Shown piece after piece: positions 1 through 26,523 of a DNA stretch of 29,756 nt (position 1 is its first letter; every line of letters begins with the position of its first letter). The notes beneath the pieces were generated by a model. It was not told the origin of the DNA. It saw only the letters and a list, made by a program, of their open reading frames with translations, and searched no databases. Position numbers and translations under genes: made by a program. This DNA comes from a virus, in the IMG/VR virus record IMGVR_UViG_3300022602_000304, positions 1 to 29,756 of that record. One strand, given 5' to 3'.

Positions 1-3000
1 GCTTGTATATCTACAAACCCATAAGTTACTGCATTGAAAAACTCGTAAGATCCAGATCCTTGTATAATAAAATTTTGTATTGCACCTACAAAATCTACCA
101 TTACAATTTCATAACTACTGTTTACTAGTGTTATGCTGCCAACAAAAGTACCAGTAGGAACACCGGTTCCTACTATCAATTGTCCTACCAAAACATTAGT
201 ATTACTGCTGACAAAGAAATAGTTAGTTCCTTTAGCGCCGCCGGATGTCAATGTTTTAGTAGTAACTAACACGTTGACAGATGTTAACCCTGCGGTATAA
301 ACTGTTACTTGAGAAACATTATAATTATATCCACCTAAAGTTTTATATAAAGACACAGACATACCTGATTGTATTTTGCTAATATTAACAGCAGTAGTTG
401 AAGTATTATAAAGATAATTCAACTGCCCAGGAACCGGAACAAACAGCAAACGAGTAAGAACAGCGGTTACCGTCTGGCCGCTAGTAAATGCGCTGATACC
501 TAATGAATCAACTCCTTGAATGGTCATACCTGCTGTAATGCCGTCACTAGATGTTAGTCTTAATATTGTTCCCGAGCTATTAACGGAATCATAGATTGCT
601 GTAATTTGAGGAACAGTTGTGTAAGATAGTTTATAAACTTTACCTGTATTATTGTTGTTAGATACAGCACTGACATAAAGATTACTTGCATCAAATACAA
701 GATTAGATCCAAAATTTTCCGAAGATATAGATGGACTCAAAAATGAATCATACAACTGATAGATGTTATTGGCATCTCTCTGATAAATTGTAACTATGCC
801 GTTGTTAGAAATTCCTGTAGTATAAGGCCCGGTATCTACCGGAACATAAAATTGCTGATTCCAAAAAGGACTCAACTGAGAAGGTGTTTGTCCTACGGGA
901 ACAGGAAACAGAGCCTGAAAATATAACCCGTTATATTTGACAATATCTTGAAATAGATAAGACGACAAAGGATTATAATTTCCTTTTAAGTAACTACTAG
1001 TCGTACCGGCTGTTGGGCTACCAGTTGCCATCCAGGTTCCGTCGGGACTAAAAGCTATAACCGAGACTGGAGTGTTCGACGAAGGAACCGATTTGCTATT
1101 AAAAGGAGGTTGCAGTAGTTGTTGTTGCGTCCAAGCAACTCCGGCAGCTACCTTATTATAAAGAGCAAAAAGATTTGCTCCAACTGATATAGCGGCATTT
1201 GTACCCAATTTATTGATAGCAACAAAATTTCCAAACTTAGTGAGATTAGCAGGCTGCGGTGCATTTAATTTTTGTTGTACAAACACTGGAGCATAGATCC
1301 AATTAGCCCAAGATCCTGTACCGTCATCATCTGTCCACACAAAGTTACCAGTCTGTAAGTTGACTGGCAATATCTTATCTATATTATCAATAGAACTAGT
1401 ACGCTGTGAGACTAATGCATAAACTATTAAATTTTGTTGTTGAGTAAATGGACTAGGAACTTTGACTCCTGGAGCATCTACGGTAAATTCGTTTAGTATA
1501 ACGCTAGTAATTTTATAGAATCCATCGATGGCAGTTACTTGCGATAATCCTACATAAGATCCTACATTTAATTTAATACTATTCTGAGCTGTGATAGTCA
1601 TTACATTATTTGAATAGGTGACATTTGTCACACGAATATGCACATCTGTAAATCTATAAACATTCCAGCTAGTTGGGCCATCAAACGCACACCAGATGTA
1701 AGCGCCCTCGTTGATCTGTGTAACATCTAATTGAACTGTTCCGGTTCCTGATCCGGCACCAGTAGCAGTAAATATCGTACCAGCTGTGTTAGAAGATGAT
1801 CCTATCGCTATAAAATCTGTTGTTCCAGTGTTTATTATTTTATAACTAACTCCAGGAATAATAGAATTTACAGATTGTGCTGTAAGATCCGATAGTCTGC
1901 CAATACTAACAAAGACATCTGCGGGATTTACATATCCTGCATCTCTTAAAAATTGATTTGGTGCTGATAAAACAGGAAACGGCTGACTGTTATATCCTGT
2001 AGGCGATACATAGATATCCGACAGAGTTTGCTGTATGATAAAAGGATTAATATTAGAATTGATAGTATTTGTTAACAATGTTCCTTGGGGATTACTAATA
2101 TATTTTCCTTGATCTAATACAAATTCTATAGCTTGGAAAGCATTAGACGCTCCATATTGACTAACACGAATAGCCCACTCTTCGTAGAATGTTAAACTTT
2201 CTGCTTTGTCCAAATTTAATGCATTAAAGAGATTATTAAGGACGGTTTGTGTTCCTTTATCACGTATCATTCCTTGATAAAATTTGAATTCGCTCACATC
2301 ATCTTGAATGATATTATCAAGATATTGTCGTTTTTGGTATCCGATCAAGTGTTGCGCCATAGTTTGTTGTGCAGTATTAAAACTATCAACATCTGTACTG
2401 TAAAAATCAACAAATTGTGTTGCAATATTAGTCCAGTTTGGAAGAATCTGAGGTGTAGGTTTACTAGACAATTTTATCCATTTAGAATTAACAAATGCCG
2501 GTGCTCCTGGAATAAATTCATCTGCACTATAATAATAACTTTGATATGTAACCACATCGCCCGTATTATAATCTTGCCAAGGCTGCCATTCGTTAATAGT
2601 AGCAGAGTCAAAAATAAATCCCGGTATATCTAATCCACCATACCAGTCTGTAGTCACATATCCTGAGATTTTTAATCTATCTCTTTTGTAACCGCTAGTA
2701 GGACTGTAGATTATATCATTGAATATAGTTGTATTATCAACAATAATAACATGTTCATTTTGTATCAAATAAAAACTAGCACCGTATATGCCTTCGTCAT
2801 TCCTAGGATTATATCGAACAGAATTTCCTTGCCTATAGCTATCAAGGTTCGAAACTTCAAAAGGAGTTCCATTAACTTTGAAAATTTCGTAAGGGTTAAA
2901 TGAGTTAGTAATACTATCGACTACAGAAAGTGTAGTTGTAAAATTAAGAGCATTGGCGCCCGGGCTCAGACTAATGACGCTGGCTCCTATATTGCTAAGG

Positions 3001-6000
3001 CCTGGTAATAGAGACCATTTAGTTTCATCAAACGATTCAGCAGGGGGCAGATTATATAAGGCACTGTAATAATCGCCATCATATCTTACAACTTTTCCAT
3101 AACTATAAGGTTGCTGGGCTTGCCAATCACTCCATTTTTCTTGACCAGTACTCCAGTTTTGAGTAGTCCAGAATAGAAATTCTCTAGCAGTTGTTTCCCA
3201 GTTTGAAACTACATTGTAGTTATTATTATAATCATCAAATCTAAATCCTTGATCTTGTAGATATTCTCCGTAGCCTAATAGGAAATCTACAACTTCTTGA
3301 ATAGTTGCAAATAATGTGCCATACGGTGCTGTATAAATTTCTTTTTTATCCCAACCGTTTCTTAATATTGCAGTAACACCGCCTTGCATAGGCAGCGATG
3401 GTAATTTAGTTAAGTTTGTAGTATCAAAACTAGGTCCTGATACAAAATTTGCATTCGATCGGTAATAAACACCTTCGTATAAAATAACGTTACCTGATAT
3501 GTATTGTTGGCCCGATGCCCATGTTGCATAACTTTCACTTATTCCGCCAACGTTAATTGTATTACCCGAACTTGTGTAAGGATAATATCTAAAATAAGGT
3601 TGTGTTATACTGTATCCTTTAATTTCAAATCCTGTAGAAACTTTTGTAATAATTACTCCACTGTAGGATAATTTTTTTACAGGGCTTGATTTGTTTAAGA
3701 ATACTTTGTAGTTCTCAGCAGGTATGAAAACATTTCCTGTACTACTAGGAGTTTTAGATTCTAAAATTAGTTTGAACTGCTCTTTATTAGTGAATGCCCC
3801 GACTCTATAGCTTAATTGAACGATCATAGTATTTAGATCAGATTTATAAGAATTATAAGCCGCTACATCATTACTAAAAATGTAATTAAAAATTAAATCT
3901 ACAATATAGTTAACTAATCCAGCAGTTTGTACTCTCAAAGAACTTGAATAAACACTAGGTAATAAAATGTCTGCTGGGCGAACACGCAATCCAGTATCAG
4001 AATAAATTAGTTGCCCTGCTTTGTTTCTAATAATTCTACTTCTATCTAATAACTTGCCAAATACTTCGGCAGGTTTTAATAATATAGCTGTAGCTATAAT
4101 ACTAAAGGGATAATAACTACTACGAGTCCAAGCATTTTCTACTGGACTACCATCACCGAAAACAAAATTATTATTGATACTAGGTTGTACAGTTCCTGAT
4201 GCTAATCCCGATGCCTGCGGACTAATTAAATTTCCTTGTTCATCTACCGGCAAGTGATTCAATAAAAATGTTCTAACATAATTTGCATTAACAGATGCAG
4301 GTTGATTAGGTTCTCTAGTTATACCGTTTGCAATATCAGTCCACATAGGAATGTTATCGCTAGTATATGGTGCTGGACCATATAACGCTGTCCACCAACT
4401 TGGTTGCAGACTGAATCCCAACATTTCCCAAGGACAAATATTAGGTCTATCTGTTCCTAATAACCAACGATATACTCCCCTCCAATAGCCTGGAAGGCTT
4501 GTACCATCTGGCGCTGTATTCAAAGAATAATTAAAAGTAAAACTATTCTTTCTATCATAGTTCAATGGCGTTGTAAGATCTTTACCTACAAGGCTTACCC
4601 AGCTATAAAAATTACTAGATAAGACATTATTAAATTCTGTAAATGAATAGTCGGTAAATCGTGTGTAACTAGGAATAATACTATAGATATCAAAAATATC
4701 TGCATTGTATTTGACTTTAATATTGTTAAAAATTCTTTTTTCTAATTCAAGAATTAAATCGTCTCTGTAATCATTGTAGGCTGCGACAATACTACCATCG
4801 TGTCCTTGTATAACTTTCACCGGATTAATTAAAGTTGTATCAAGATAAATTTTTGGCGCAAATGCAGGCCACATACCTAATTTTGTTGGTGTGGCTGGAA
4901 CAAAACTGCCATCGGTGCTGTCGTATTCGTAAGTAGTAATTGTGTCGCCAGTTACTAACGGTACGCTAGGATCTATTTCTATAAATCCTTGACTATTAAA
5001 TGAATAGTCTTGACCGTATATCAATTGTACACCGTTATGATATACTCCTACTGCCTGATTACTAAGCGAATCTAAACTAAAAACCTTACTTAGTGGATAA
5101 TTTTTAATTCTATAGTCTACTACATCTAAAACAGTTACAGTGGCCGCACCATAAGGAACCATATCGCTGAGGTAATAAGGAGCAACTTTAGGTTTAGACG
5201 CATTAATCTGTTGCATAATGATATCTACAAGTTTTACAGCATCACCATCAATACCTAAAGAACTTGCAGTATTCAAAAACAATCTTTTGAAATTATTGTA
5301 ATCGTCCTTGGCCTGCTGTAGAGATCTAATAATGTTATTAGATTCCGAAGTAATATGGTATGCTGATAGACTGATAGGTCCGCTATGTTGTACAAATTTT
5401 GTACCATATTGAGTAACATTACCAAGATCTCTCAGATTACTATCGCCTGGAAAATTTCCTGAAAAATTAGTTATATTGTCAATTATACTGCTTACGTGAT
5501 CTGCTACTTCTCCTAGAGTAAAATCTACCATTGTACCATTCAAAGTATTATTTTGTAAATTGATAGGTATTTCGTAGTAGCCGTTACTATTGATAGGTTG
5601 CGAGGCAAACGCACGAATAGTTAATATATCAGTCGATTGAATAGGAGACGTTAATATTACTTGTTTATAGTAAATTGTATCTTGTATAGTCCATAGACTA
5701 GGATCTAATCTAACACCATTTATATAAATCTTAACCACTAAATCAGAAAGATTGTTTATATCATCAAATATATCTATGTTGAAATTATTTGTTATTCCAG
5801 AATTATCATAAATCCTAACAGCGGCTTGGACTGTTTTAGTCTTGCAAGTTTGCCATCCGTTTACATACACAGTATTACCTGCATAATCTAAACTTGATAA
5901 AAACCCTACATCTATTTCTTTATTTTGTAAGATGGTATTTTGCTTATACTGAAAAGAATCAGTTACAAGATTAAAATTAAAAACAATATCACCGATATTA

Positions 6001-7826
6001 TTAACATTCTGATAGCTTAGGGGAAATCCTAAATATATGTCATTGGAACCTGTAACAGAACTATTAGGCAAACTACCAGGATACGAAAAAATTGGAGTAC
6101 CGGTAAATGTAGTACCGACATAAGTAGTTTTATCTCCAAAACTTATACCATCATTATCTACTACATCAAACATTGGTGGTTGATTAATCGAACTTTTTGT
6201 TTGTCCTTTTTGCCATTTAGATCCATCGTACCAATACATACTACCTTGATTAACAGATCCTTGGCGAACTATTACTATCTGATTAAGTTCAGGTGAAGCT
6301 ACTTCTACAAGATGCAGTTGATTGCTACCGGTAGATAAATGTTTAACATCTACATATTCGACACGGAAAATTTTATTTTGTACTAGCGGATCAATGTCAG
6401 CAGTAAACAACACAAACATGCCTGGACTAAGTGCAACATTATCTATATTATAACCAGCTGTACCTTCTATAGTTAAAAATGCATCGATGGTAAAATCATC
6501 TACAAGATCTATATCTTGAATCGCAACGGTTCCTAAATTATAAAGTTTAATATCAGCATTAAATTCGATAATTGGACGCTTTGCTCTTACTGACTGATCT
6601 AATACAGGAGTCTGGTTATTAAATTTTGCACTTGCGTTAATTACATCTTGGTGGAACCAACGATTATATCTCGACCACGGGTTTCTATCTCTACTGGATC
6701 TATTAATAGTAATGTAATCTAACTTGCCTTGATAGCCGGAAGCAATGTCAAAAGGCTCAGTGTCAAACTTATCACTATCAAAATTAATAGGGCTATTTGT
6801 AGTAAATGAACTAATAATTTCTAAACTTCTCGATGGAATTAATTTGATTGCAGTTCCCACGCCCTCAACATAATATTCGTCTTGAGCATAGATAGCAGGT
6901 GTTACCTGACCGACGAAATTAAGTTTCATCCCGTTACTAAGAGCTGTGCCATCGATCAGAGTATAGGTTGCTTTCCCTAGTATTTCGGCTTCTACATTGA
7001 TTGTAGTATCTGAAAGTATAGAATAAATCTGTATCATTCCGCCTAGATTAATATCGTTTTCGCTTTGATAATATAGTATAGAAGGAGCATCAGTGGGAAC
7101 TGTAAATGTAATAGTTCCAACTTCAACTCCGTATGCACTAACAGAATCAATGTTACTATAACGATCTAACACGCCTGTACTTCTTGCAGTCTTAATACTG
7201 AAAGGATTGCCAGGACTATTAATATTAAACGTGTAGGTTTGTCCTTGATACAATTTTAATACAGGATCAGGAGTCGACCCGTCTGGAGTAAACACATATT
7301 GATTATTAGCACCTTCTTGTTGGATGGCAACACTGTACGTACTAGCTATTGGTTGTATTTGTCCGTGTACATTTATAGTTTGAGGGCCGTATGGTAACCA
7401 ATAGTAATTTTGAAAATTAACAAATTTGTCCCAATCGATATGCGGATCCCAACTGTAAAATTCTTGACTGTTTAATCTAGCATGATGACTGACGTTGCCA
7501 CCGAGTACATCAAGTTGATTTATGTAATCAATATAATCTTTGAAATAGGTAACATTTCCCAATGTATCGGTAATTGTTAACCCTGGTTCTAATTGATAAT
7601 TCTGTCTTATCTGATCTGCGGCTTGAATATAAACATCTTTACCAGTACTAGCTTTAGCATTTTTACGTCCAACATAGCCACTGATTTTAGTCAACGATCC
7701 CGGTTGATATAGTTGATCAATAGTACTCTGCAAAAACTTTCTGTTTGCGTTAGTTTGATAAAATCTAGGTAGAAGATTTACGCTGAATCCGTTTGATCCG
7801 TTAGCGTTTTTATTATTACCAGCCAT
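1..7826 (-). CDS. giant virion/baseplate structural protein, gp7 position (partial, C-terminus outside window)
   Basis: I read this frame through every line and found no stop from the ATG at 7826 to the window edge: 2,608 codons, with the C-terminus missing. The protein begins MAGNNKNANGSNGFSVNLLP. It carries an aromatic-rich NPWSRYNRWFHQDVI segment near residues 380-400, which I recall from large structural proteins next to gp6 in marine T4-like phages. In T4 the gene after 6 is 7 (baseplate wedge, 1,032 aa), so a wedge or peripheral baseplate role is inferred from position. Distal parts hold repeated CBM5/12-like modules (about residues 1430-1470, 1560-1600, 1745-1785 and 2280-2320) and FG-GAP-like propeller strands (FGNFVAINK near 2200, FGSNLVFDASNLYVSAV near 2370). 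These suggest a surface-binding, adhesin-like distal half. Its start overlaps the gp6 stop (TAATG), so it is translationally coupled. Exact gp7 orthology is not proven. Confidence 0.85.
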   Translation of the reverse strand, partial: MAGNNKNANGSNGFSVNLLPRFYQTNANRKFLQSTIDQLYQPGSLTKISGYVGRKNAKASTGKDVYIQAADQIRQNYQLEPGLTITDTLGNVTYFKDYIDYINQLDVLGGNVSHHARLNSQEFYSWDPHIDWDKFVNFQNYYWLPYGPQTINVHGQIQPIASTYSVAIQQEGANNQYVFTPDGSTPDPVLKLYQGQTYTFNINSPGNPFSIKTARSTGVLDRYSNIDSVSAYGVEVGTITFTVPTDAPSILYYQSENDINLGGMIQIYSILSDTTINVEAEILGKATYTLIDGTALSNGMKLNFVGQVTPAIYAQDEYYVEGVGTAIKLIPSRSLEIISSFTTNSPINFDSDKFDTEPFDIASGYQGKLDYITINRSSRDRNPWSRYNRWFHQDVINASAKFNNQTPVLDQSVRAKRPIIEFNADIKLYNLGTVAIQDIDLVDDFTIDAFLTIEGTAGYNIDNVALSPGMFVLFTADIDPLVQNKIFRVEYVDVKHLSTGSNQLHLVEVASPELNQIVIVRQGSVNQGSMYWYDGSKWQKGQTKSSINQPPMFDVVDNDGISFGDKTTYVGTTFTGTPIFSYPGSLPNSSVTGSNDIYLGFPLSYQNVNNIGDIVFNFNLVTDSFQYKQNTILQNKEIDVGFLSSLDYAGNTVYVNGWQTCKTKTVQAAVRIYDNSGITNNFNIDIFDDINNLSDLVVKIYINGVRLDPSLWTIQDTIYYKQVILTSPIQSTDILTIRAFASQPINSNGYYEIPINLQNNTLNGTMVDFTLGEVADHVSSIIDNITNFSGNFPGDSNLRDLGNVTQYGTKFVQHSGPISLSAYHITSESNNIIRSLQQAKDDYNNFKRLFLNTASSLGIDGDAVKLVDIIMQQINASKPKVAPYYLSDMVPYGAATVTVLDVVDYRIKNYPLSKVFSLDSLSNQAVGVYHNGVQLIYGQDYSFNSQGFIEIDPSVPLVTGDTITTYEYDSTDGSFVPATPTKLGMWPAFAPKIYLDTTLINPVKVIQGHDGSIVAAYNDYRDDLILELEKRIFNNIKVKYNADIFDIYSIIPSYTRFTDYSFTEFNNVLSSNFYSWVSLVGKDLTTPLNYDRKNSFTFNYSLNTAPDGTSLPGYWRGVYRWLLGTDRPNICPWEMLGFSLQPSWWTALYGPAPYTSDNIPMWTDIANGITREPNQPASVNANYVRTFLLNHLPVDEQGNLISPQASGLASGTVQPSINNNFVFGDGSPVENAWTRSSYYPFSIIATAILLKPAEVFGKLLDRSRIIRNKAGQLIYSDTGLRVRPADILLPSVYSSSLRVQTAGLVNYIVDLIFNYIFSNDVAAYNSYKSDLNTMIVQLSYRVGAFTNKEQFKLILESKTPSSTGNVFIPAENYKVFLNKSSPVKKLSYSGVIITKVSTGFEIKGYSITQPYFRYYPYTSSGNTINVGGISESYATWASGQQYISGNVILYEGVYYRSNANFVSGPSFDTTNLTKLPSLPMQGGVTAILRNGWDKKEIYTAPYGTLFATIQEVVDFLLGYGEYLQDQGFRFDDYNNNYNVVSNWETTAREFLFWTTQNWSTGQEKWSDWQAQQPYSYGKVVRYDGDYYSALYNLPPAESFDETKWSLLPGLSNIGASVISLSPGANALNFTTTLSVVDSITNSFNPYEIFKVNGTPFEVSNLDSYRQGNSVRYNPRNDEGIYGASFYLIQNEHVIIVDNTTIFNDIIYSPTSGYKRDRLKISGYVTTDWYGGLDIPGFIFDSATINEWQPWQDYNTGDVVTYQSYYYSADEFIPGAPAFVNSKWIKLSSKPTPQILPNWTNIATQFVDFYSTDVDSFNTAQQTMAQHLIGYQKRQYLDNIIQDDVSEFKFYQGMIRDKGTQTVLNNLFNALNLDKAESLTFYEEWAIRVSQYGASNAFQAIEFVLDQGKYISNPQGTLLTNTINSNINPFIIQQTLSDIYVSPTGYNSQPFPVLSAPNQFLRDAGYVNPADVFVSIGRLSDLTAQSVNSIIPGVSYKIINTGTTDFIAIGSSSNTAGTIFTATGAGSGTGTVQLDVTQINEGAYIWCAFDGPTSWNVYRFTDVHIRVTNVTYSNNVMTITAQNSIKLNVGSYVGLSQVTAIDGFYKITSVILNEFTVDAPGVKVPSPFTQQQNLIVYALVSQRTSSIDNIDKILPVNLQTGNFVWTDDDGTGSWANWIYAPVFVQQKLNAPQPANLTKFGNFVAINKLGTNAAISVGANLFALYNKVAAGVAWTQQQLLQPPFNSKSVPSSNTPVSVIAFSPDGTWMATGSPTAGTTSSYLKGNYNPLSSYLFQDIVKYNGLYFQALFPVPVGQTPSQLSPFWNQQFYVPVDTGPYTTGISNNGIVTIYQRDANNIYQLYDSFLSPSISSENFGSNLVFDASNLYVSAVSNNNNTGKVYKLSYTTVPQITAIYDSVNSSGTILRLTSSDGITAGMTIQGVDSLGISAFTSGQTVTAVLTRLLFVPVPGQLNYLYNTSTTAVNISKIQSGMSVSLYKTLGGYNYNVSQVTVYTAGLTSVNVLVTTKTLTSGGAKGTNYFFVSSNTNVLVGQLIVGTGVPTGTFVGSITLVNSSYEIVMVDFVGAIQNFIIQGSGSYEFFNAVTYGFVDIQ

Positions 7827-17031: not shown

Positions 17032-17871
17032 ATGACAGCGAAAGTAAATTACCTAAACAACAAGGATATGTTGTTAGAAATACATAGATCAAAAACATCT
17101 TATTGTGTTTTTACCAAAAAAGAATATCACCAATATGATCTAATAGTACCCAGTTTAGACAAAATCAATATAAGAACTATAGCGGAAGCCAAACGTGTAC
17201 AGGCTAAACGATTAGGTCAACAGGAGTTTGAACGTAGAAAGAAAGCAGGAGAAAAGATAAAACTAGCCGATTGCGAAGTTGACTATAAAAAAATTGCTAA
17301 AACAGATGTGATATTCAGAGTTATGACTTTTGATCACATTCCACTTAATAATACTCGTAAAAAGAATCCCAAAAGCCTTGCTGACCATAGGGACAAGGTC
17401 AATTTCCCGCCATTCCAACACTGGAAATTTGATAATGACGATCCCGAGAAACTGATCTGTGTAGGTAAAAGCCACTGGAAAGGTACTTTAGAAAAAGGCC
17501 ATTTTGATAAAGATGCAGGACAAATTACAGATACACTTGCTCGCATGATGATAAAACTGTGCGAAAGGTATGCTACCCGTGGAAATGTACGTGGCTACAC
17601 ATACAACGACGAAATGAAAGGCATGGCTATCTTGCAATTAACGCAGATTGGTCTGCAATTTGATGAATCAAAATCAGATAATCCGTTTGCATACTTTACT
17701 GCGGCTGTTACCAACAGCTTCGTTCGTGTTATTAATACAGAAAAACGTAATCAAAACATCCGCGATGACATTTTAGAAATGAACGGAATGAATCCTAGTT
17801 ATAGTCGTACCGGTGCTGGAGAGCATGCGGCCGCAATGAAACGCAACAATGAGGATATGAGTAGTGAGTAA
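17032..17871 (+). CDS. 55: late transcription sigma factor gp55
   Basis: Gp55 binds host RNA polymerase core and directs it to late promoters with a TATAAATA-like -10 box. The N-terminus VNYLNNKDMLLEI parallels the T4 start NYVNNKELLQAI as I remember it. The sigma core lies at about residues 163-250: a DTLARMMIKLCERY helix, GYTYNDEM, and the diagnostic SDNPFAYFTAAVTNSFVRVI with EKRNQN. Between them are about 120-135 residues (about 25-160) with no T4 counterpart. They include an RRKKAGEKIK basic stretch and VIFRVMTFDHIPL. The product is 279 aa against 185 in T4. The C-terminal end (AAAMKRNNEDMSSE) is polar and does not resemble the hydrophobic clamp-binding tail of T4 gp55. It leads the operon with gp47 and overlaps that start. 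Confidence 0.9.
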   Translation: MTAKVNYLNNKDMLLEIHRSKTSYCVFTKKEYHQYDLIVPSLDKINIRTIAEAKRVQAKRLGQQEFERRKKAGEKIKLADCEVDYKKIAKTDVIFRVMTFDHIPLNNTRKKNPKSLADHRDKVNFPPFQHWKFDNDDPEKLICVGKSHWKGTLEKGHFDKDAGQITDTLARMMIKLCERYATRGNVRGYTYNDEMKGMAILQLTQIGLQFDESKSDNPFAYFTAAVTNSFVRVINTEKRNQNIRDDILEMNGMNPSYSRTGAGEHAAAMKRNNEDMSSE

Positions 17872-18877
17872 TTTATTCAAAAAAGTAGCATGTTTTACAG
17901 ATATCCACTTTGGATTAAAGTCTAACAGTAGCGTTCACAACCAAGACTGTGAGGACTTTGTAGATTGGTATATTGCTAAAGCAAAGGAGGAAGGTTGTGA
18001 TACAGGTATCTTTATGGGTGATTGGCATCATAATCGTAATAGCCTTAACATTACTACAATGGATTATAGCCTTAGGGCCTTGGAGAAGTTGGGACAAGCG
18101 TTTGATCAGTTCTACTTCTTTCCTGGTAATCATGATTTGTATTATAAAGATAAACGAGACATACACTCTGTGGAGTTTGGAAAATATATTCCTGGTGTTA
18201 CTGTGGTACACGAGCCTACTACTATTGGAGATGTCACACTTTGTCCGTGGCTGGTGGGCGAAGAGTGGCGAAGTATCGGCAAAAAAGGCGGCAAATACAT
18301 CTTCGGACACTTCGAACTACCTAGCTTCTTCATGAACGCAATGGTACAGATGCCGGATCATGGAGAGATAAAACTTGATAGTTTTACAGGATACGAACTA
18401 GGATTCAGTGGACACTTTCACAAACGACAACAACAAAAGAATATGATCTATATCGGTAATGCATTTCCGCATAACTATGCCGATGCATGGGACGATGAGC
18501 GCGGCATGATGGTATTAGAATGGGGAGGAATCCCGGAATATCATACGTGGCCCAATCAACCTACATTTAGAACTATCAAACTAAGCGAATTGATTGATCG
18601 TGCAGATCAAATTATATTGCCCAAGCAACATTTACGTGTTACACTGGATATAGACATCAGTTACGAAGAAGCTAGCTTTGTTAAAGAAAAGTTTATGGCA
18701 GATTATGATGTTCGTGAATTGATTTTAATAGCAGAAAAGAAAGATATCGAAATTAATACCAATATCGATGTACAGAGTTTTGAAAGTGTTGATCAAATTG
18801 TTAGCAGTCAGATTATTAATATTGATAGCGACACTTACGACAAAAATACATTACTAGCAATTTATAACGACCTATGA
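17864..18877 (+). CDS. 47: recombination endonuclease subunit gp47 (Mre11-like)
   Basis: This is the Mre11-type nuclease subunit that, with gp46, resects DNA ends for recombination-dependent replication and repair. All phosphoesterase motifs are present: DIH (13-15), GDWHHN (52-57), GNHD (88-91), GHFE (148-151) and GHFHKR (183-188), giving the two-metal site. The length of 337 aa matches T4 gp47 (339 aa). The start is a GTG at 17864 with GAGG 9 nt upstream, inside the end of gp55, so the genes overlap by 8 bases and are probably coupled. The stop overlaps the gp46 start as ATGA. Confidence 0.95.
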   Translation: MSNLFKKVACFTDIHFGLKSNSSVHNQDCEDFVDWYIAKAKEEGCDTGIFMGDWHHNRNSLNITTMDYSLRALEKLGQAFDQFYFFPGNHDLYYKDKRDIHSVEFGKYIPGVTVVHEPTTIGDVTLCPWLVGEEWRSIGKKGGKYIFGHFELPSFFMNAMVQMPDHGEIKLDSFTGYELGFSGHFHKRQQQKNMIYIGNAFPHNYADAWDDERGMMVLEWGGIPEYHTWPNQPTFRTIKLSELIDRADQIILPKQHLRVTLDIDISYEEASFVKEKFMADYDVRELILIAEKKDIEINTNIDVQSFESVDQIVSSQIINIDSDTYDKNTLLAIYNDL

Positions 18878-20655
18878 GTATAAATCTTAAAGAATTAACA
18901 GTAAAAAACTTCATGAGTGTGGGTAACCAAACCCAAGCAGTGAATTTTGCACAAGAAAACTTAACGCTTGTACTAGGTGAAAACTTAGATCAAGGCGGCG
19001 ATGACGCAGGTAGCAGAAATGGTACAGGAAAAACCACTATTGTCAATGCGTTAAGTTTTGCCTTGTTTGGCCAAGCATTAACTAACATCAAAAAAGATAA
19101 TCTTATCAATAAGATCAATACTAAAAATATGTTAGTTACCTTAGCATTTGAAAAAAATGGAATAGACTATCGTATAGAACGAGGACGTAAACCTAACATA
19201 TTACAATTCTTTGTAAACGATCAAGCACAGGATGTAGAAGAAACCGATGATGCACAAGGTGATGTGCGTGAAACACAAAAAGATTTAGATGATCTAATTG
19301 GTATGAGCCACGATATGTTCAAGCATATTGTAGCACTAAACACTTACACAGAGCCGTTTCTTAGTATGCGTACCAATGATCAAAGAGTAATCATTGAACA
19401 ACTACTAGGTATTACCCTTTTAAGTGAAAAAGCCGAACTATTAAAAGAACAAATCCGAATAACTAAAGAATCAATTACTCAAGAAACCGCTAATATAGAA
19501 GCAATTAAACGCAGTAATGAAAACATACAAAAAAGCATCGATGGTATTTTAACAAGACAAAGTGCATGGCGTAATCAGCATGCACAAGACCTTGAAAAGC
19601 TGGGCAAAAGTATTGTAGAACTTGAAGGCGTAGATATCGAAGCTGAGCTTGCGAAGCATGCGGAGCTAAAAGCCTATGAAGAAAAGGCAGCGAAGCTGAA
19701 AAGCCTAAATAAGGAACGTGCTACGTTAGATAGCGCGACAGCGCAAGCGGAGCGGAGCGTCACGAAGTATGACGGCGAGCTCGCCAAATTGGCTAATAAG
19801 ACCTGTCACGCTTGTGAACAACAGCTACATGATCATAAACATGAAGAAATGACTGTGACAGCACAAGGGCACCTTGATGAAGCCCGGAAATATTTGGCCA
19901 AAGTCACCGGTGATCTCGCTAAAATACAGAAAGAAATCTTGGCTTTAGGCGAAGTCTCTAGACGCCCCGACACTTACTATGACACTGTAGAACAGGCACT
20001 TAAACATCAAAACAATCTCAAGACTCTAGAAAATCAATTGGTACAAAAGTCGCATGAAACAGATCCTTATCAGGAGCAGATCGACGAACTAACCAATACA
20101 GCACTACAAGAAGTGTCTTGGGATCAGGTCAATCTCTTGGGCACACTTAAAGATCATCAAGAATTCTTGTTAAAACTGTTAACGTCTAAAGATTCATTTA
20201 TCCGTAAAAAGATCATAGACCAGAATCTTGCATACTTAAACAATAGATTGACCTATTACTTAGATAAGATGGGCTTGCCACATACTGTGACATTCCAAAA
20301 TGACCTATCAGTGCTAATCACACAGCTAGGACAGGATCTAGATTTTGACAACTTGTCGCGTGGTGAACGCAATAGATTGATACTGAGTTTATCTTGGGCG
20401 TTCCGTGATGTATGGGAAAGTCTATATCAACCCATTAATCTCTTGTTTATCGACGAGTTGATCGATAATGGACTGGATGCGGCTGGTGTAGAAGGTGCGT
20501 TAGCAGTACTGAAAAAGATGGCTCGTGAACGCAAGAAGAACATATTCTTGATCAGTCACAAGGACGAATTGATAGGTCGTGTCAATAATGTCTTGCGAGT
20601 AGTCAAAGAAAACGGCTTTACCAACTATGCAAATGACCTAGAAGTAACTGAATGA
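18874..20655 (+). CDS. 46: recombination endonuclease subunit gp46 (Rad50-like ATPase)
   Basis: This is the SMC/Rad50-type ATPase partner of gp47. The Walker A motif GSRNGTGKTT is at about 47-55. Two long coiled-coil arms flank a zinc hook CHAC with cysteines at 311 and 314. The ABC signature LSRGER is at 494-499 and Walker B LLFIDE, with catalytic D527/E528, is followed by a D-loop-like NGLDAAG. The length of 593 aa compares with 560 in T4. The ATG overlaps the gp47 stop (ATGA). The coiled-coil segment just before the hook (about 19610-19800) is GC-rich with many GCG, GAG and CGG codons, unlike the rest of the gene; the reading frame is intact there. Confidence 0.95.
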   Translation: MSINLKELTVKNFMSVGNQTQAVNFAQENLTLVLGENLDQGGDDAGSRNGTGKTTIVNALSFALFGQALTNIKKDNLINKINTKNMLVTLAFEKNGIDYRIERGRKPNILQFFVNDQAQDVEETDDAQGDVRETQKDLDDLIGMSHDMFKHIVALNTYTEPFLSMRTNDQRVIIEQLLGITLLSEKAELLKEQIRITKESITQETANIEAIKRSNENIQKSIDGILTRQSAWRNQHAQDLEKLGKSIVELEGVDIEAELAKHAELKAYEEKAAKLKSLNKERATLDSATAQAERSVTKYDGELAKLANKTCHACEQQLHDHKHEEMTVTAQGHLDEARKYLAKVTGDLAKIQKEILALGEVSRRPDTYYDTVEQALKHQNNLKTLENQLVQKSHETDPYQEQIDELTNTALQEVSWDQVNLLGTLKDHQEFLLKLLTSKDSFIRKKIIDQNLAYLNNRLTYYLDKMGLPHTVTFQNDLSVLITQLGQDLDFDNLSRGERNRLILSLSWAFRDVWESLYQPINLLFIDELIDNGLDAAGVEGALAVLKKMARERKKNIFLISHKDELIGRVNNVLRVVKENGFTNYANDLEVTE

Positions 20656-20933: not shown

Positions 20934-21371
20934 ATGTCATGGTACTATGAAAATCAATTAATCACAGAATTGCCCGAAGATTGTGTAGGGTTTGTTTATC
21001 TTATAACAAATACAGTCACAGGGCGTATGTACATAGGCAAAAAACTAGCAAAATTTTCTAAAACAACTTATCGAACAGTTAAATTAAAAAACGGAACTAA
21101 GAAAAAAAAGAAAATCCGTGGCAAAATTGACAGTGACTGGAGAGAATATTATGGATCTTCAGACGAACTACTCAAGGATGTTGCGCAGTTAGGTCAAGAA
21201 AACTTTCACCGAGAGATATTATTTTACTGTAAAAGCAAGGCTGAAACGTCATACATAGAGGCACGAGAACAATTTACACGCAGGGTATTGGAATCTGACG
21301 ACTATTACAATGGTCAGATCTCAGTTCGTGTCCACGGCTCCCACATTAAAGGCAAACAAATCAACGGGTAA
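20934..21371 (+). CDS. GIY-YIG nuclease superfamily protein
   Basis: The N-terminal half shows the GIY-YIG fold signature: GFVYLITNTVTGRMYIGKK (about 18-36), in which VYL replaces GIY and YIG is intact. A lysine-rich insert follows (NGTKKKKKIRGK), then DWREYYGSS and a conserved glutamate in EAREQF. The family includes homing endonucleases (Seg) and T4 endonuclease II. The short length (145 aa) and lack of a separate DNA-binding domain resemble the stand-alone nuclease-like proteins common in aquatic T4-like phages. It starts 3 nt after the previous stop and ends the rightward operon. Whether it acts as a homing or a host-DNA nuclease cannot be told. Confidence 0.82.
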   Translation: MSWYYENQLITELPEDCVGFVYLITNTVTGRMYIGKKLAKFSKTTYRTVKLKNGTKKKKKIRGKIDSDWREYYGSSDELLKDVAQLGQENFHREILFYCKSKAETSYIEAREQFTRRVLESDDYYNGQISVRVHGSHIKGKQING

Positions 21372-21814: not shown

Positions 21815-22048
21815 TTAGACTAAAGGCATACGTGTTTCTTTGGTATTTTCTATATTCTGATTGATAACAGCATACATCATTTCACGATCTTCGTAACTGT
21901 AAGTATGTAGGAGATCGTTGACTGTGACTCCGCCTCGCATGTACCAGCTGATCCTAAATAGTTCTTCTTTGAATTGCTTGATCTGATTATCTAGCCTAAT
22001 CAGTGCTTGTTCAATTTCTTGACTGCTCTTACCGATTAGGCTTGAACG
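21815..22048 (-). CDS. 51: gp51-like hub assembly domain, predicted to be made only as a -1 frameshift fusion to gp26
   Basis: This reading frame encodes a 77-residue segment: SSQEIEQALIRLDNQIKQF, then SWYMRGGVTVNDLLHTYSYE, then MYAVINQNIENTKETRMPLV and a stop at 21817-21815. The WYMRGGV...EDRE...NIE.TK..MPL pattern is what I associate with gp51 (baseplate hub assembly) of marine T4-like phages, where it follows gp26. No ATG, GTG or TTG lies between the upstream in-frame stop and the conserved tryptophan; the first ATG is inside the core (YMRGG). The frame is -1 relative to gp26 and overlaps its last codons at a slippery heptamer, so I annotate it from the first codon after the shift. The alternatives are an ATC start at 22036 or a sequencing error. 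Confidence 0.65.
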   Translation of the reverse strand, partial: RSSLIGKSSQEIEQALIRLDNQIKQFKEELFRISWYMRGGVTVNDLLHTYSYEDREMMYAVINQNIENTKETRMPLV

Positions 22049-22054
22049 AAAAAA
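21993..22054 (-). promoter_or_regulatory. programmed -1 ribosomal frameshift signal (gp26/gp51)
   Basis: On the minus strand the heptamer T TTT TTC (22054-22048) is read in gp26 as AGT TTT TTC, the X XXY YYZ phase needed for tandem -1 slippage. Five bases later begins a 12-bp stem, AGCCTAATCGGT (22042-22031) with ACTGATTAGGCT (22004-21993), fully paired with one G-T wobble and a 26-nt loop. After the shift the ribosome enters the gp51 frame at CGT (22048-22046) and bypasses the gp26 TAA at 22038-22036. This arrangement matches known -1 frameshift sites in phage tail-assembly chaperone genes. Function is inferred; the sequence elements are directly seen. Confidence 0.7.
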
Positions 22055-22860
22055 CTTGCGCTGTCCAGATCCACTGTGAGATTAGCTTCAGTACCGCAGT
22101 TATCGCACTTGACCGGGAATGATGGCATGGTATAGGCAGTGGTATTTCGAGCGTTGACTTCTTTCACAGCATCAAACACAGTTTTTTCGCAGTTCTCGAT
22201 CCATTCATTGATAAATCTACGCTCAGTCACAGTCTGATCACCAGTGTCAATACTTTCAATCGCATATTTGAACAATTCATTTTGTATGTTGCCTAGTTCT
22301 TTGAACAGTTCGTTGATAGTGGCCTGTCGTTGGTCAGCATCTTCTATCGAATCAGTTTGACTGATGCGTTGTTGCAGTTGAAAATTTCTAATATTGATAT
22401 CTGTGCTTTGACGATAAGTCAAGGGCTGTATCCTAATAACTAGACCATTGATAGTCAAGCTGTTCTGATAAGTGGCTGTCATATAAAACTCTATGACCTT
22501 GCTGAGATCTATGTCATATTCATTGTCAGAAGCACAGTTAGTACACTTGTGCTCTATAGACATCATGTTGCCATAGGTAGCAATACGTATACCACACAGT
22601 ATCAACACTATGTCTAGTACACTTAAATCCCAGGGATTCTTAATAGCAGGACAGCAACTAGCTATCAACTGCGCAGTACTTTCACCCGACAGCAGTGCAT
22701 CAGGTGTTCTTACTATGATTTCATCCATGCCAGTCATACCGTATACTGGAATGTTAGCAGGATCTCCCTGTATGGTTCCGGGTTGACTGTACATACCACT
22801 GCTGGGCAGTTTAATATAGATCTTAGGTTGTCTAAAATACTTCTGTAGGGGATTTGTCAT
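22036..22860 (-). CDS. 26: baseplate hub / tail assembly chaperone protein gp26
   Basis: This 274-residue protein has the T4 gp26 family pattern: IYIKLPSSGMYSQPG (14-28), GMDEIIVRTPDALLSGES (44-61), the SCCPAI turn (68-73) and DIVLILCGIRIATYG (83-97). Two CxxC pairs (C106/C109 and C252/C255) could form one zinc-binding site. T4 gp26 is 208 aa and is needed for hub assembly. I chose the ATG at 22860, which has GGAG at 6 nt spacing; a TTG at 22872 would place that GGAG inside the gene. A TATAAATA late promoter lies 24 nt upstream. The last codons contain the predicted frameshift site that would extend the product to 348 residues with gp51. It lies next to, but opposite in strand from, the tape measure region. 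Confidence 0.88.
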   Translation of the reverse strand: MTNPLQKYFRQPKIYIKLPSSGMYSQPGTIQGDPANIPVYGMTGMDEIIVRTPDALLSGESTAQLIASCCPAIKNPWDLSVLDIVLILCGIRIATYGNMMSIEHKCTNCASDNEYDIDLSKVIEFYMTATYQNSLTINGLVIRIQPLTYRQSTDINIRNFQLQQRISQTDSIEDADQRQATINELFKELGNIQNELFKYAIESIDTGDQTVTERRFINEWIENCEKTVFDAVKEVNARNTTAYTMPSFPVKCDNCGTEANLTVDLDSASFFVQA

Positions 22861-23964: not shown

Positions 23965-26523
23965 ATGGCTGATTTAACCAAACAAGATCTAACCGACGCC
24001 TTTTCGGCCGCACTGAAAGCCAATGGTGGCGGTAATTCGAGCGCAGGATCTGGATCTAGTAGTACTGCCGCAGGAGGAGCGTTTGCTGATAAGTTAAAAG
24101 AAGCTACCGGTGCTTTTAATCCACTTACCGCGGCTACTAATCTAGCAGGTACTGCTTTTGAAAAAGGTGCACAGGCTGTCAAAGCCATGCACGACGTTAT
24201 TCAGCCAGGATTAGATACTTGGCGCAAACTAAGTTCTAGCGGTGCTAATTTTAATAACGATGTGGTAGGAATGACTGCCGCAGCCGCTGGTAGCCGTTTA
24301 AGTCTAAGTGAATTTCAAGATGTAATTGGAAAAAATACAAAAAGTTTTACAGCTCTAGGCGGTAATGTAGCACAAGGCGCACAAGCATTTACTAATTTAA
24401 GCAAAGAAATGTTTGATAGTGGTGTTACCGATCAGTTGAAATTGATGGGAATGACTAGCAAAGATGTCAACGATGCACTGGCATTAACAGTTGCTAATCA
24501 ATATACAGTTAATCTAAACGATGAAAAATCTAAGAAACAGGCTATTTTAAGTGCTACAGAACTGGCAACTGAGATGGATCAGATGGCCAAACTGACAGGC
24601 AAGACACGCCAAGAACAAGAAGAAGCACAGAAAAAACTACAGGGAGATGCACAATTCCAAGCTAAACTTCAGTTAGATACTATGAATATGACTGAAGAAC
24701 AAGCACTAGAGTACAGGAATAAAGTAACTCAAGCCGCTGTAAAAGCAGAAGCAGAAGGAAATGGCGAAGCATTTAAGGAATACTTTGCTACCGGCACATT
24801 ACAATCGCAAGAAGCCGCAACGAAAGCAAGTCTTTTCCAAGAGCAAACTCAAGCAACATTCCGTGAAGTAGATGCGTTAAAGAATAGAAACTATTCTCAA
24901 GCTTCTGAAGAAGCAAAAAACAGAGAAGTACAAATTAGCAAAGATGCTAAAGATGTAGGTAAAAATCAGTTAGCTACATTAGGTACTGTCACAGAGGCTA
25001 GTAAGGCAGCCGGTTCGATGTTGCAAAGCCAAAGAACTACAGCCGCTGCCTACGAATCTACCTTAAAAGAACTTAATGCACAAGGCAAACTTAAAGGATT
25101 ATCCGAAAAAGAACAAGATGAATTGGTCAAAAAGACCATGGATTCAAAACTTAAAGAAACGCAAACTAAAGTAGATCCTAGTACAGAAGCCCTGGTTAAA
25201 CTAGGTGCTCGCGCAGAAGATGTGCAGAGTGCTTTTATGAACAAAATTGTAGTGCCTGTTAATAAAGATTTGAATCCTGCTTTAGAACAATTTAACAAAG
25301 GGTTGTTAAATTCAAAAATTCCAGATGCAACTCGCGGCGGTAAACCTGTACAAACTACATTTGCAAAAGGTGTAGAAGAAAAATTAGAACAAGGACGTAA
25401 AGAAGGACAAAAAGGTACTCCAGCTCCTGCAGGTCCTACAAATTCGGCAATAGCAAATCAAGCAGTTGGCAATACTAAACAAGGTCCAGGCAGCGAAGGT
25501 TTAACTTTTACTGGAAGTAATGCAATACAAGGTATAGCACAGGGTATAGGAACTGCTGAAACCTTTGTTAAGCAACTAACAAGTCAAACTACTCCTGCTA
25601 AAGAAACAGGCGGTGTAGTTCCAGGAACTGACAAAGGTACTACAGTTACAGTAGGTGAAAAAGGCAAACCTGAAGCGATTGTTCCATTAGATCAATTGAA
25701 AAATATGATAAGTTCAGGAGGTCTACCAGGGCTCAACGCTGAACAAATAGAAACTCTTAAACAAGGTCCTGGAGAACGTAATGGTGGCAAAGGATCTCCT
25801 TTCTATCAAGAAGCACTTGCAATGAGTCAGAAGATGATGAGTGAAATGGCGGCAACTACTGCTAGTATTAGTGACAAATCGGGATCTAGTGGCTTAGATA
25901 TGACGCAGATTTCTAAACTTGTAAATGCTACAATAAGTGATGCCGGGGGCAAATCGCCTACGAACGCAGTTGATATAGAAAAAGAATTATCTGGAAAACA
26001 AAAAGCACTAGCTGAATCTGAAGCCAAAGGCATACCTAAATTAGGTGATATAGAAAAAGAATTATCTGGAAAACAAAAAGCATTAGCTGAATCTGAAGCC
26101 AAAGGCATACCTAAATTAGGTGATATAAAAAATCCAGCAAATCAGTTTGATGATATGTTTGGTAATTTATTTGGAAGTAAAGGCGGAGACAGCTTCCTTA
26201 AAGACATTACAACTCAGATGCAAACGGCTACAAAGATAGACCCGACTATTATTAAAAAACCAGAAGATCATCAAAAAGAAGCAGAAGCCAAAGCCAAAGC
26301 AGAAATGGAAGCCAAAAAGAAAGAACCTGCTCCTGTACACAAAGATGAAGACAAGAAGCCGGCTCCTGCTACAAGCGAAGTCACCATGAAAGACTTACAT
26401 ACCAGTCTGGAACACTTAAATAGTAGTATAAAACAAATGCTTTCTTACACACAGCAGACTGTAACTCTAGCTAGAGATCAAGTAAAAGCTACTAAAGGTC
26501 TAACTGGTAATAAGTTTGCATAA
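23965..26523 (+). CDS. tail tape measure protein
   Basis: This long (852 aa), mostly helical, low-cysteine protein is rich in Ala, Gln, Lys and Glu. Residues about 60-130 are hydrophobic and helical. Long charged helices follow to about 470. A small domain (about 546-582) then has the TGGVVPGTDKGTTVTVGEKG and PEAIVPLDQL signature often found near the C-terminus of tape measure proteins. It is longer than T4 gp29 (590 aa). A 25-residue segment (DIEKELSGKQKALAESEAKG and the next five residues) is perfectly duplicated. Downstream the chain is Lys/Glu/Pro-rich, ending in a helix. The ATG has AGGA 6 nt upstream. It sets tail length in this family by spanning the tube lumen. Placement next to the portal gene differs from T4. 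Confidence 0.82.
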   Translation: MADLTKQDLTDAFSAALKANGGGNSSAGSGSSSTAAGGAFADKLKEATGAFNPLTAATNLAGTAFEKGAQAVKAMHDVIQPGLDTWRKLSSSGANFNNDVVGMTAAAAGSRLSLSEFQDVIGKNTKSFTALGGNVAQGAQAFTNLSKEMFDSGVTDQLKLMGMTSKDVNDALALTVANQYTVNLNDEKSKKQAILSATELATEMDQMAKLTGKTRQEQEEAQKKLQGDAQFQAKLQLDTMNMTEEQALEYRNKVTQAAVKAEAEGNGEAFKEYFATGTLQSQEAATKASLFQEQTQATFREVDALKNRNYSQASEEAKNREVQISKDAKDVGKNQLATLGTVTEASKAAGSMLQSQRTTAAAYESTLKELNAQGKLKGLSEKEQDELVKKTMDSKLKETQTKVDPSTEALVKLGARAEDVQSAFMNKIVVPVNKDLNPALEQFNKGLLNSKIPDATRGGKPVQTTFAKGVEEKLEQGRKEGQKGTPAPAGPTNSAIANQAVGNTKQGPGSEGLTFTGSNAIQGIAQGIGTAETFVKQLTSQTTPAKETGGVVPGTDKGTTVTVGEKGKPEAIVPLDQLKNMISSGGLPGLNAEQIETLKQGPGERNGGKGSPFYQEALAMSQKMMSEMAATTASISDKSGSSGLDMTQISKLVNATISDAGGKSPTNAVDIEKELSGKQKALAESEAKGIPKLGDIEKELSGKQKALAESEAKGIPKLGDIKNPANQFDDMFGNLFGSKGGDSFLKDITTQMQTATKIDPTIIKKPEDHQKEAEAKAKAEMEAKKKEPAPVHKDEDKKPAPATSEVTMKDLHTSLEHLNSSIKQMLSYTQQTVTLARDQVKATKGLTGNKFA
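25972..26121 (+). repeat. 75-bp in-frame tandem duplication within the tape measure gene
   Basis: Two adjacent 75-bp copies (25972-26046 and 26047-26121) differ at one base (C at 26008, T at 26083), a synonymous CTA/TTA leucine change. They encode the same 25 residues twice. Near-identity indicates a recent duplication. Confidence 0.97.

Follow-up and report, generated by a model that had tools for sequence, protein, structure and literature searches.

The window, that is, the whole stretch of DNA analysed here, is a virus record of 29,756 bases, and all positions are counted along its full length. Its minus strand carries a gp26-like gene that runs from an ATG at 22860, preceded by GGAG at 22870-22867, to a TAA at 22038-22036, and the 3' end of this reading frame reads AGT TTT TTC GTT CAA GCC TAA. 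The encoded protein matches T4_baseplate (PF12322) in the HMM library with E=9e-13 and 'baseplate hub' (phrog_150) in PHROGs with E=1.5e-16. Around the end of this gene, and on the other strand nearby, we recognize the following features:

22036..22860, minus strand: gp26-like gene, putative short form (TAC-N), 274 aa
22048..22054, minus strand: slippery heptamer T TTT TTC in the phase of gp26, invariant in distinct relatives
22043..22047, minus strand: 5-nt spacer from heptamer to stem, as judged by sequence, fold and aligned relatives
22031..22042, minus strand: 5' arm of the stem, which includes the gp26 stop codon (fold z = -4.4, covariation)
21993..22004, minus strand: 3' arm of the stem (fold, covariation, Arg as AGG in 55/55, Gly as GGG in 12/12)
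21815..22048, minus strand: -1 frame extension of 77 codons plus stop, a conserved protein and the TAC-C part of the predicted fusion
23965..26523, plus strand: candidate tape measure gene, 852 aa

The gp26 locus and its -1 frame

An earlier note, made from the letters of this DNA, had proposed that a programmed -1 frameshift fuses gp26 to a downstream frame that it called gp51. We found its description of the site to be correct to the base, with T TTT TTC at 22054-22048 standing in the exact phase for -1 slippage. The -1 frame entered from the heptamer is indeed the downstream frame, and the predicted lengths were confirmed, with a 274-aa product and a fusion of 348 aa (271 + 77), so that the long reading frame comprises the short form plus a C-terminal domain. 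Bounded upstream by a stop at 22084-22082, the -1 open reading frame extends to 21815; as claimed, it contains no ATG, GTG or TTG before its conserved core, and the earliest, 114 nt beyond the first base of the heptamer, encodes the Met of the core motif SWYM. The label 'gp51' had to be qualified, in that the extension (about 77-81 codons) is not T4 gp51, which is a whole long form, but would correspond to its C-terminal part alone.

AlphaFold predicted gp26 with a pLDDT of 86 and the extension as all-helical with a pLDDT of 83. Fold searches with gp26 and with the extension returned no PDB chain at E<=0.001 and no solved relative for either, and a VIA-align structural search gave a top Z of 7.5 to unrelated helices. 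These searches matched neither part to a solved TAC. A fold search of BFVD retrieved only other phage proteins, which, where named, were mostly of the baseplate-hub type.

The earlier note had also placed gp26/gp51 beside the tape measure gene. A candidate does lie near, but it is encoded on the opposite strand with one 335-aa gene between, and its identity is tentative: a family search with the 852-aa protein gave no family match, and a single comparison with a RaK2 protein annotated as tape-measure-similar gave a weak hit (E=3e-5 over 122 aa). The protein contains a GEKGKPEAIVPL motif, typical of tape measure proteins, and 23965-26523 may be the tape measure gene. Within it, at 25971-26132 (plus strand), a 75-bp unit is repeated 2.2 times at 97%, encoding the repeated peptide IEKELSGKQKALAESEAKGIPKLGD. 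Elsewhere in the window are a GIY-YIG homing endonuclease of the SegE family at 20934-21371 (plus strand; PF19835, E=3e-34), apparent gp47/gp46-type recombination nuclease genes at 17864-20655, upstream of the homing endonuclease gene, and an ORF of more than 2600 aa at 3-7826 (minus strand) that extends off the window and matches a carbohydrate-binding module (PF02839) around residue 1746.

Conservation of the heptamer, the stem and the extension

A gp26 scan of IMG/VR yielded 80 loci with 47-66% identity, among which L006 was excluded on account of a broken gp26 frame. Every intact relative carries TTTTTTCG in the same phase. Counted from the first base of the heptamer, the stop follows after 10 or 16 nt, and the -1 frame stays open for 74-76 codons beyond the stop or to the end of the contig. 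Counted as distinct genes, TTTTTTCG ends gp26 in phase in 69/69 of the window clade and in 64/64 of a cyanophage-type set, so that a heptamer of the form X XXY YYZ in zero-frame phase is present in all of them. By itself, the heptamer is unremarkable in number, there being 15 copies of T TTT TTC in the window against 10.3 expected; what lifts it above chance is its conservation in two clades, the fixed T at the slip wobble and the covariation of the stem. As the two counts come from related sequences and are non-independent, we relied on a codon-column test to control for kinship. Among the 35 two-fold pyrimidine (NNY) codon columns of gp26 in the window clade, only 2 are 100% T, and these are exactly both wobble positions required by tandem slippage; for the cyanophage set, 30 such columns include a single always-T one, which is the Phe column of the site.

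The 12-bp stem with one wobble that the earlier note had drawn 5 nt after the heptamer also held up. It pairs 22042-22031 with 22004-21993, including one G-U, and its position at 5 nt falls within the 5-9 nt downstream at which a stimulatory structure is expected. Folding of the 75-nt stretch gave -21 kcal/mol (z = -4.4, with 0/200 shuffles as stable). In an alignment of 59 distinct sequences, 94.4% of the stem cells are paired, with changes on both sides in 5 pairs; the variable pairs are the outermost and the innermost ones. The covariation score of 0.332 exceeds that of shuffled alignments (0.220; 0/500) and of slid controls (at most 0.112), and RNAalifold recovers the same 12-bp helix. The mean fold z 3' of the heptamer was -4.0 in the window clade and -2.0 in the cyanophage set vs. 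-0.1 in control windows within gp26. We considered whether conservation of the stem might be a by-product of coding, and this was ruled out by codon bias: Arg in the 3' arm is encoded by AGG in 55/55 sequences, compared with 3.5% of Arg codons elsewhere, and Gly by GGG in 12/12, compared with 4.9% elsewhere, choices for which coding alone cannot account. In addition, GCC precedes the stop in 65/69 genes while making up 21.6% of Ala codons elsewhere.

Among 48 representatives, conservation of the -1 frame product begins right after the slip, with FFR, and continues from there, with F1, F2, R3, L6, L18, L21, K29, W37, R40, G41, L48, D56 and N67 invariant. This conserved frame lacks a start of its own in 61/69 relatives, as evidenced by the absence of ATG, GTG or TTG before the core, and in 12/69 a -1 frame stop abuts the heptamer, which leaves slippage or a later start as the only ways into the frame. 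The alignment of related gp26-gp51 junctions that the earlier note had called for retained the heptamer in 69/69 with a covarying stem, and we also looked for relatives that depart from this layout; none within the clade regains a conserved start, and the heptamer is present throughout. Comparison among relatives thus shows, at the level of sequence, conservation of the site, its phase, the stem and the coding of the extension.

Isolated phages and the relation to T4 gp26 and gp51

The arrangement extends to isolated phages. An in-phase TTTTTTC near the end of gp26, followed by a -1 extension, is found in PA5oct, RaK2, Atu_ph07, GAP32, Kaldavass, XaC1 and CBB, as well as in IC12 and Phosso, with TTTTTTT in XacN1 and TTTTTTG in RL38J1 at the corresponding site, each again with a -1 extension. 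With an HMM of the window-clade extension, those of Atu_ph07, Phosso, GAP32, CBB, Kaldavass, RaK2 and XacN1 score higher than shuffled decoys. In the jumbo phage records L081-L088, either gp26 alone or gp26 with a truncated 'hypothetical protein' is annotated; a -1 fusion is likely in these records as judged by their sequences. The hairpin is not universal, since no clear stimulatory stem was found in RaK2, GAP32, CBB, Kaldavass or RL38J1, where fold z was near 0 or above.

T4 gp26 (208 aa) and gp51 (249 aa) both hit phrog_150 as well as PF12322, the latter across almost the full model, and gp51 has an extra C-terminal part; by these matches the two are paralogues, a short form and a long form. 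The same PF12322 and phrog_150 models link the short form of the window to T4 gp26. Comparison of gp26 profiles with single T4 sequences by hhalign was uninformative, though by the HMM libraries they belong to a single family. The T4 genes 26 and 51 are divergently transcribed and have no slippery site, which means that T4 makes the short and the long form from two genes, in contrast to one gene with a frameshift in most of the relatives examined. In this sense T4 fits a scheme of short and long forms, gp51 being gp26-like plus a C-terminal extension, but differs in gene layout.

For the extension, the connection to T4 runs through intermediates. The cyanophage extension, to which alone the name gp51 is given in cyanophage annotation, is related to the C-terminal part of T4 gp51 through phrog_634 and phrog_150, hhalign (E=5e-5) and HMM comparison. 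Direct profile comparison of the window-clade extension gave no significant match to T4 gp51, to the cyanophage extension or to PHROGs, and in HMM comparison it links only to jumbo-phage extensions. Its link to T4 gp51 is one of position and intermediate chains, which break off between extensions of the jumbo type and those of the cyanophage/T4 type.

Proposed frameshifting and the probable tail assembly chaperones

We propose that the gp26 mRNA carries a signal comprising a slippery U UUU UUC, a 5-nt spacer and a hairpin of 11-12 bp. The majority of ribosomes would end at the TAA and release the 274-aa short protein, while a minority would slip back by one base and yield the 348-aa fusion with its helical 77-residue C-terminal domain. 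By homology to T4 gp26/gp51, the two products would be short and long tail assembly chaperones (TAC-N and TAC-NC), holding the tape measure protein and loading tail tube subunits onto it. That slippage occurs, how often it does and that the products act as chaperones are what we infer from these comparisons. On comparative grounds, frameshifting at the end of gp26 is almost certain. The chaperone role, which draws on homology and on the listing of T4 gp26/gp51 as hub assembly chaperones (PMC3004832), appears quite probable, and the reading as a whole, a programmed -1 frameshift that makes short and long tail assembly chaperones, is in our judgment highly probable. The conserved site, its phase, the covarying stem and the -1 protein all bear out what the earlier note had predicted in this respect, and its analogy to tail assembly chaperones was likewise right, with gp26 sharing PF12322 and phrog_150 with T4 gp26/gp51 and with a precedent among T4-like phages.

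The extension might instead be a gene in its own right, with translation beginning by termination-reinitiation or at a non-AUG codon immediately past the gp26 stop. Such an arrangement has counterparts among relatives: in all 36 distinct cyanophage-type junctions listed, an ATG lies 5 nt beyond the first base of the stop codon, and Cygsa01 (L092 3072-3982) is without the slippery site and has a TAATG overlap, the ATG overlapping the stop. In the window clade, however, 61/69 relatives offer no ATG, GTG or TTG ahead of the core, the Ile codon after the stop is ACT or ACA in some, and a separate gene would leave unexplained the fixed heptamer wobble, the conserved FFR upstream of any start and the hairpin; we regard a separate gene as very improbable. 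Slippage of RNA polymerase on the six-U run, with an inserted base in some mRNAs, would give the same two proteins from a site that is homopolymeric. Six U are short for bacterial transcriptional slippage, and the phase-exact TTT TTC with a covarying hairpin 5 nt downstream suits ribosomal slippage better, making the polymerase, if anything, slightly less plausible still than a separate gene. That the two genes are merely separated by a genuine frameshift mutation or an error in sequencing is extremely improbable: one genome whose frame was broken would present the same picture, but the layout recurs in over 130 distinct genes on independent contigs and in 11 isolated phages, and sequencing error was rejected on this conservation.

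The cyanophage-type relatives (L096-L175; e.g. L096 2720-2730) have the slippery site together with the ATG just after the gp26 stop. With both kept, a fusion and a free extension could both arise. We speculate, with considerable doubt, that the cyanophage-type extension may be made in two ways, as a frameshift fusion and as a free protein from the post-stop ATG.

The programmed -1 frameshift proposed for gp26 has relatives in known systems. In lambda (gpG/gpGT) and P2 (E/E+E'), a short protein and a minor -1 frameshift extension serve tape measure assembly (PMC5009743). The likeness lies in a short protein with a rare -1 extension; in sequence or fold, no relation of these proteins to gp26 emerged here. 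Their slippery sequence and operon order also differ from those of the gp26 locus. In the Vandenendeviridae phage Adele, a conserved poly-T site at the TAC-N 3' end and an uninterrupted -1 frame are described in a manner that resembles the present locus, but in other phage families, with the motif GTTTTT and, as far as that account goes, with no description of stem covariation (PMC12846349). Closer still, Vladimirov, Gautam and Davidson (Virology 2022, 566:9-15) are credited with identifying the TAC genes of T4-like phages. Later papers cite them for TAC-N genes that carry poly-T -1 frameshift signals in this group (PMC12846349) and for some members in which the short and the long form have a gene each. 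As conveyed by the citing papers, short and long forms with poly-T -1 signals in TAC-N are features shared with our locus; frameshifted short and long tail chaperones are, on that account, already reported for T4 relatives, and the gp26 frameshift adds a member to a known type. The abstract of the 2022 study reportedly names T4 genes 26 and 51 and has frameshifting conserved in several T4-like groups, and its chaperones are, by these T4 names, presumably the same protein family. The statement in the earlier note that nothing of the kind is described for T4-like phages therefore fails. Our literature searches on a gp26/gp51 frameshift returned no description, the 2022 study being known only through papers that cite it; set against that study as so represented, we did not find the window clade, the covarying hairpin or the spread among jumbo phages described.

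Over a broad spectrum of phages with a T4-type gp26, these comparisons show that a T6C frameshift site has been retained, accompanied by a covarying hairpin in the window clade. For several sequenced jumbo phages that list only gp26, a 'hypothetical protein' or nothing at the extension, annotation would have to be corrected. If the cyanophage-type extension is made in both ways, the chaperone set of these phages would consist of three products, an intermediate state between coding by frameshift and separate genes as in Cygsa01 and T4. The natural variants, with T TTT TTC, T TTT TTT or T TTT TTG at the site, an ATG without the site, or two paralogous genes, may serve as a test set for the ratio of short to long chaperone.
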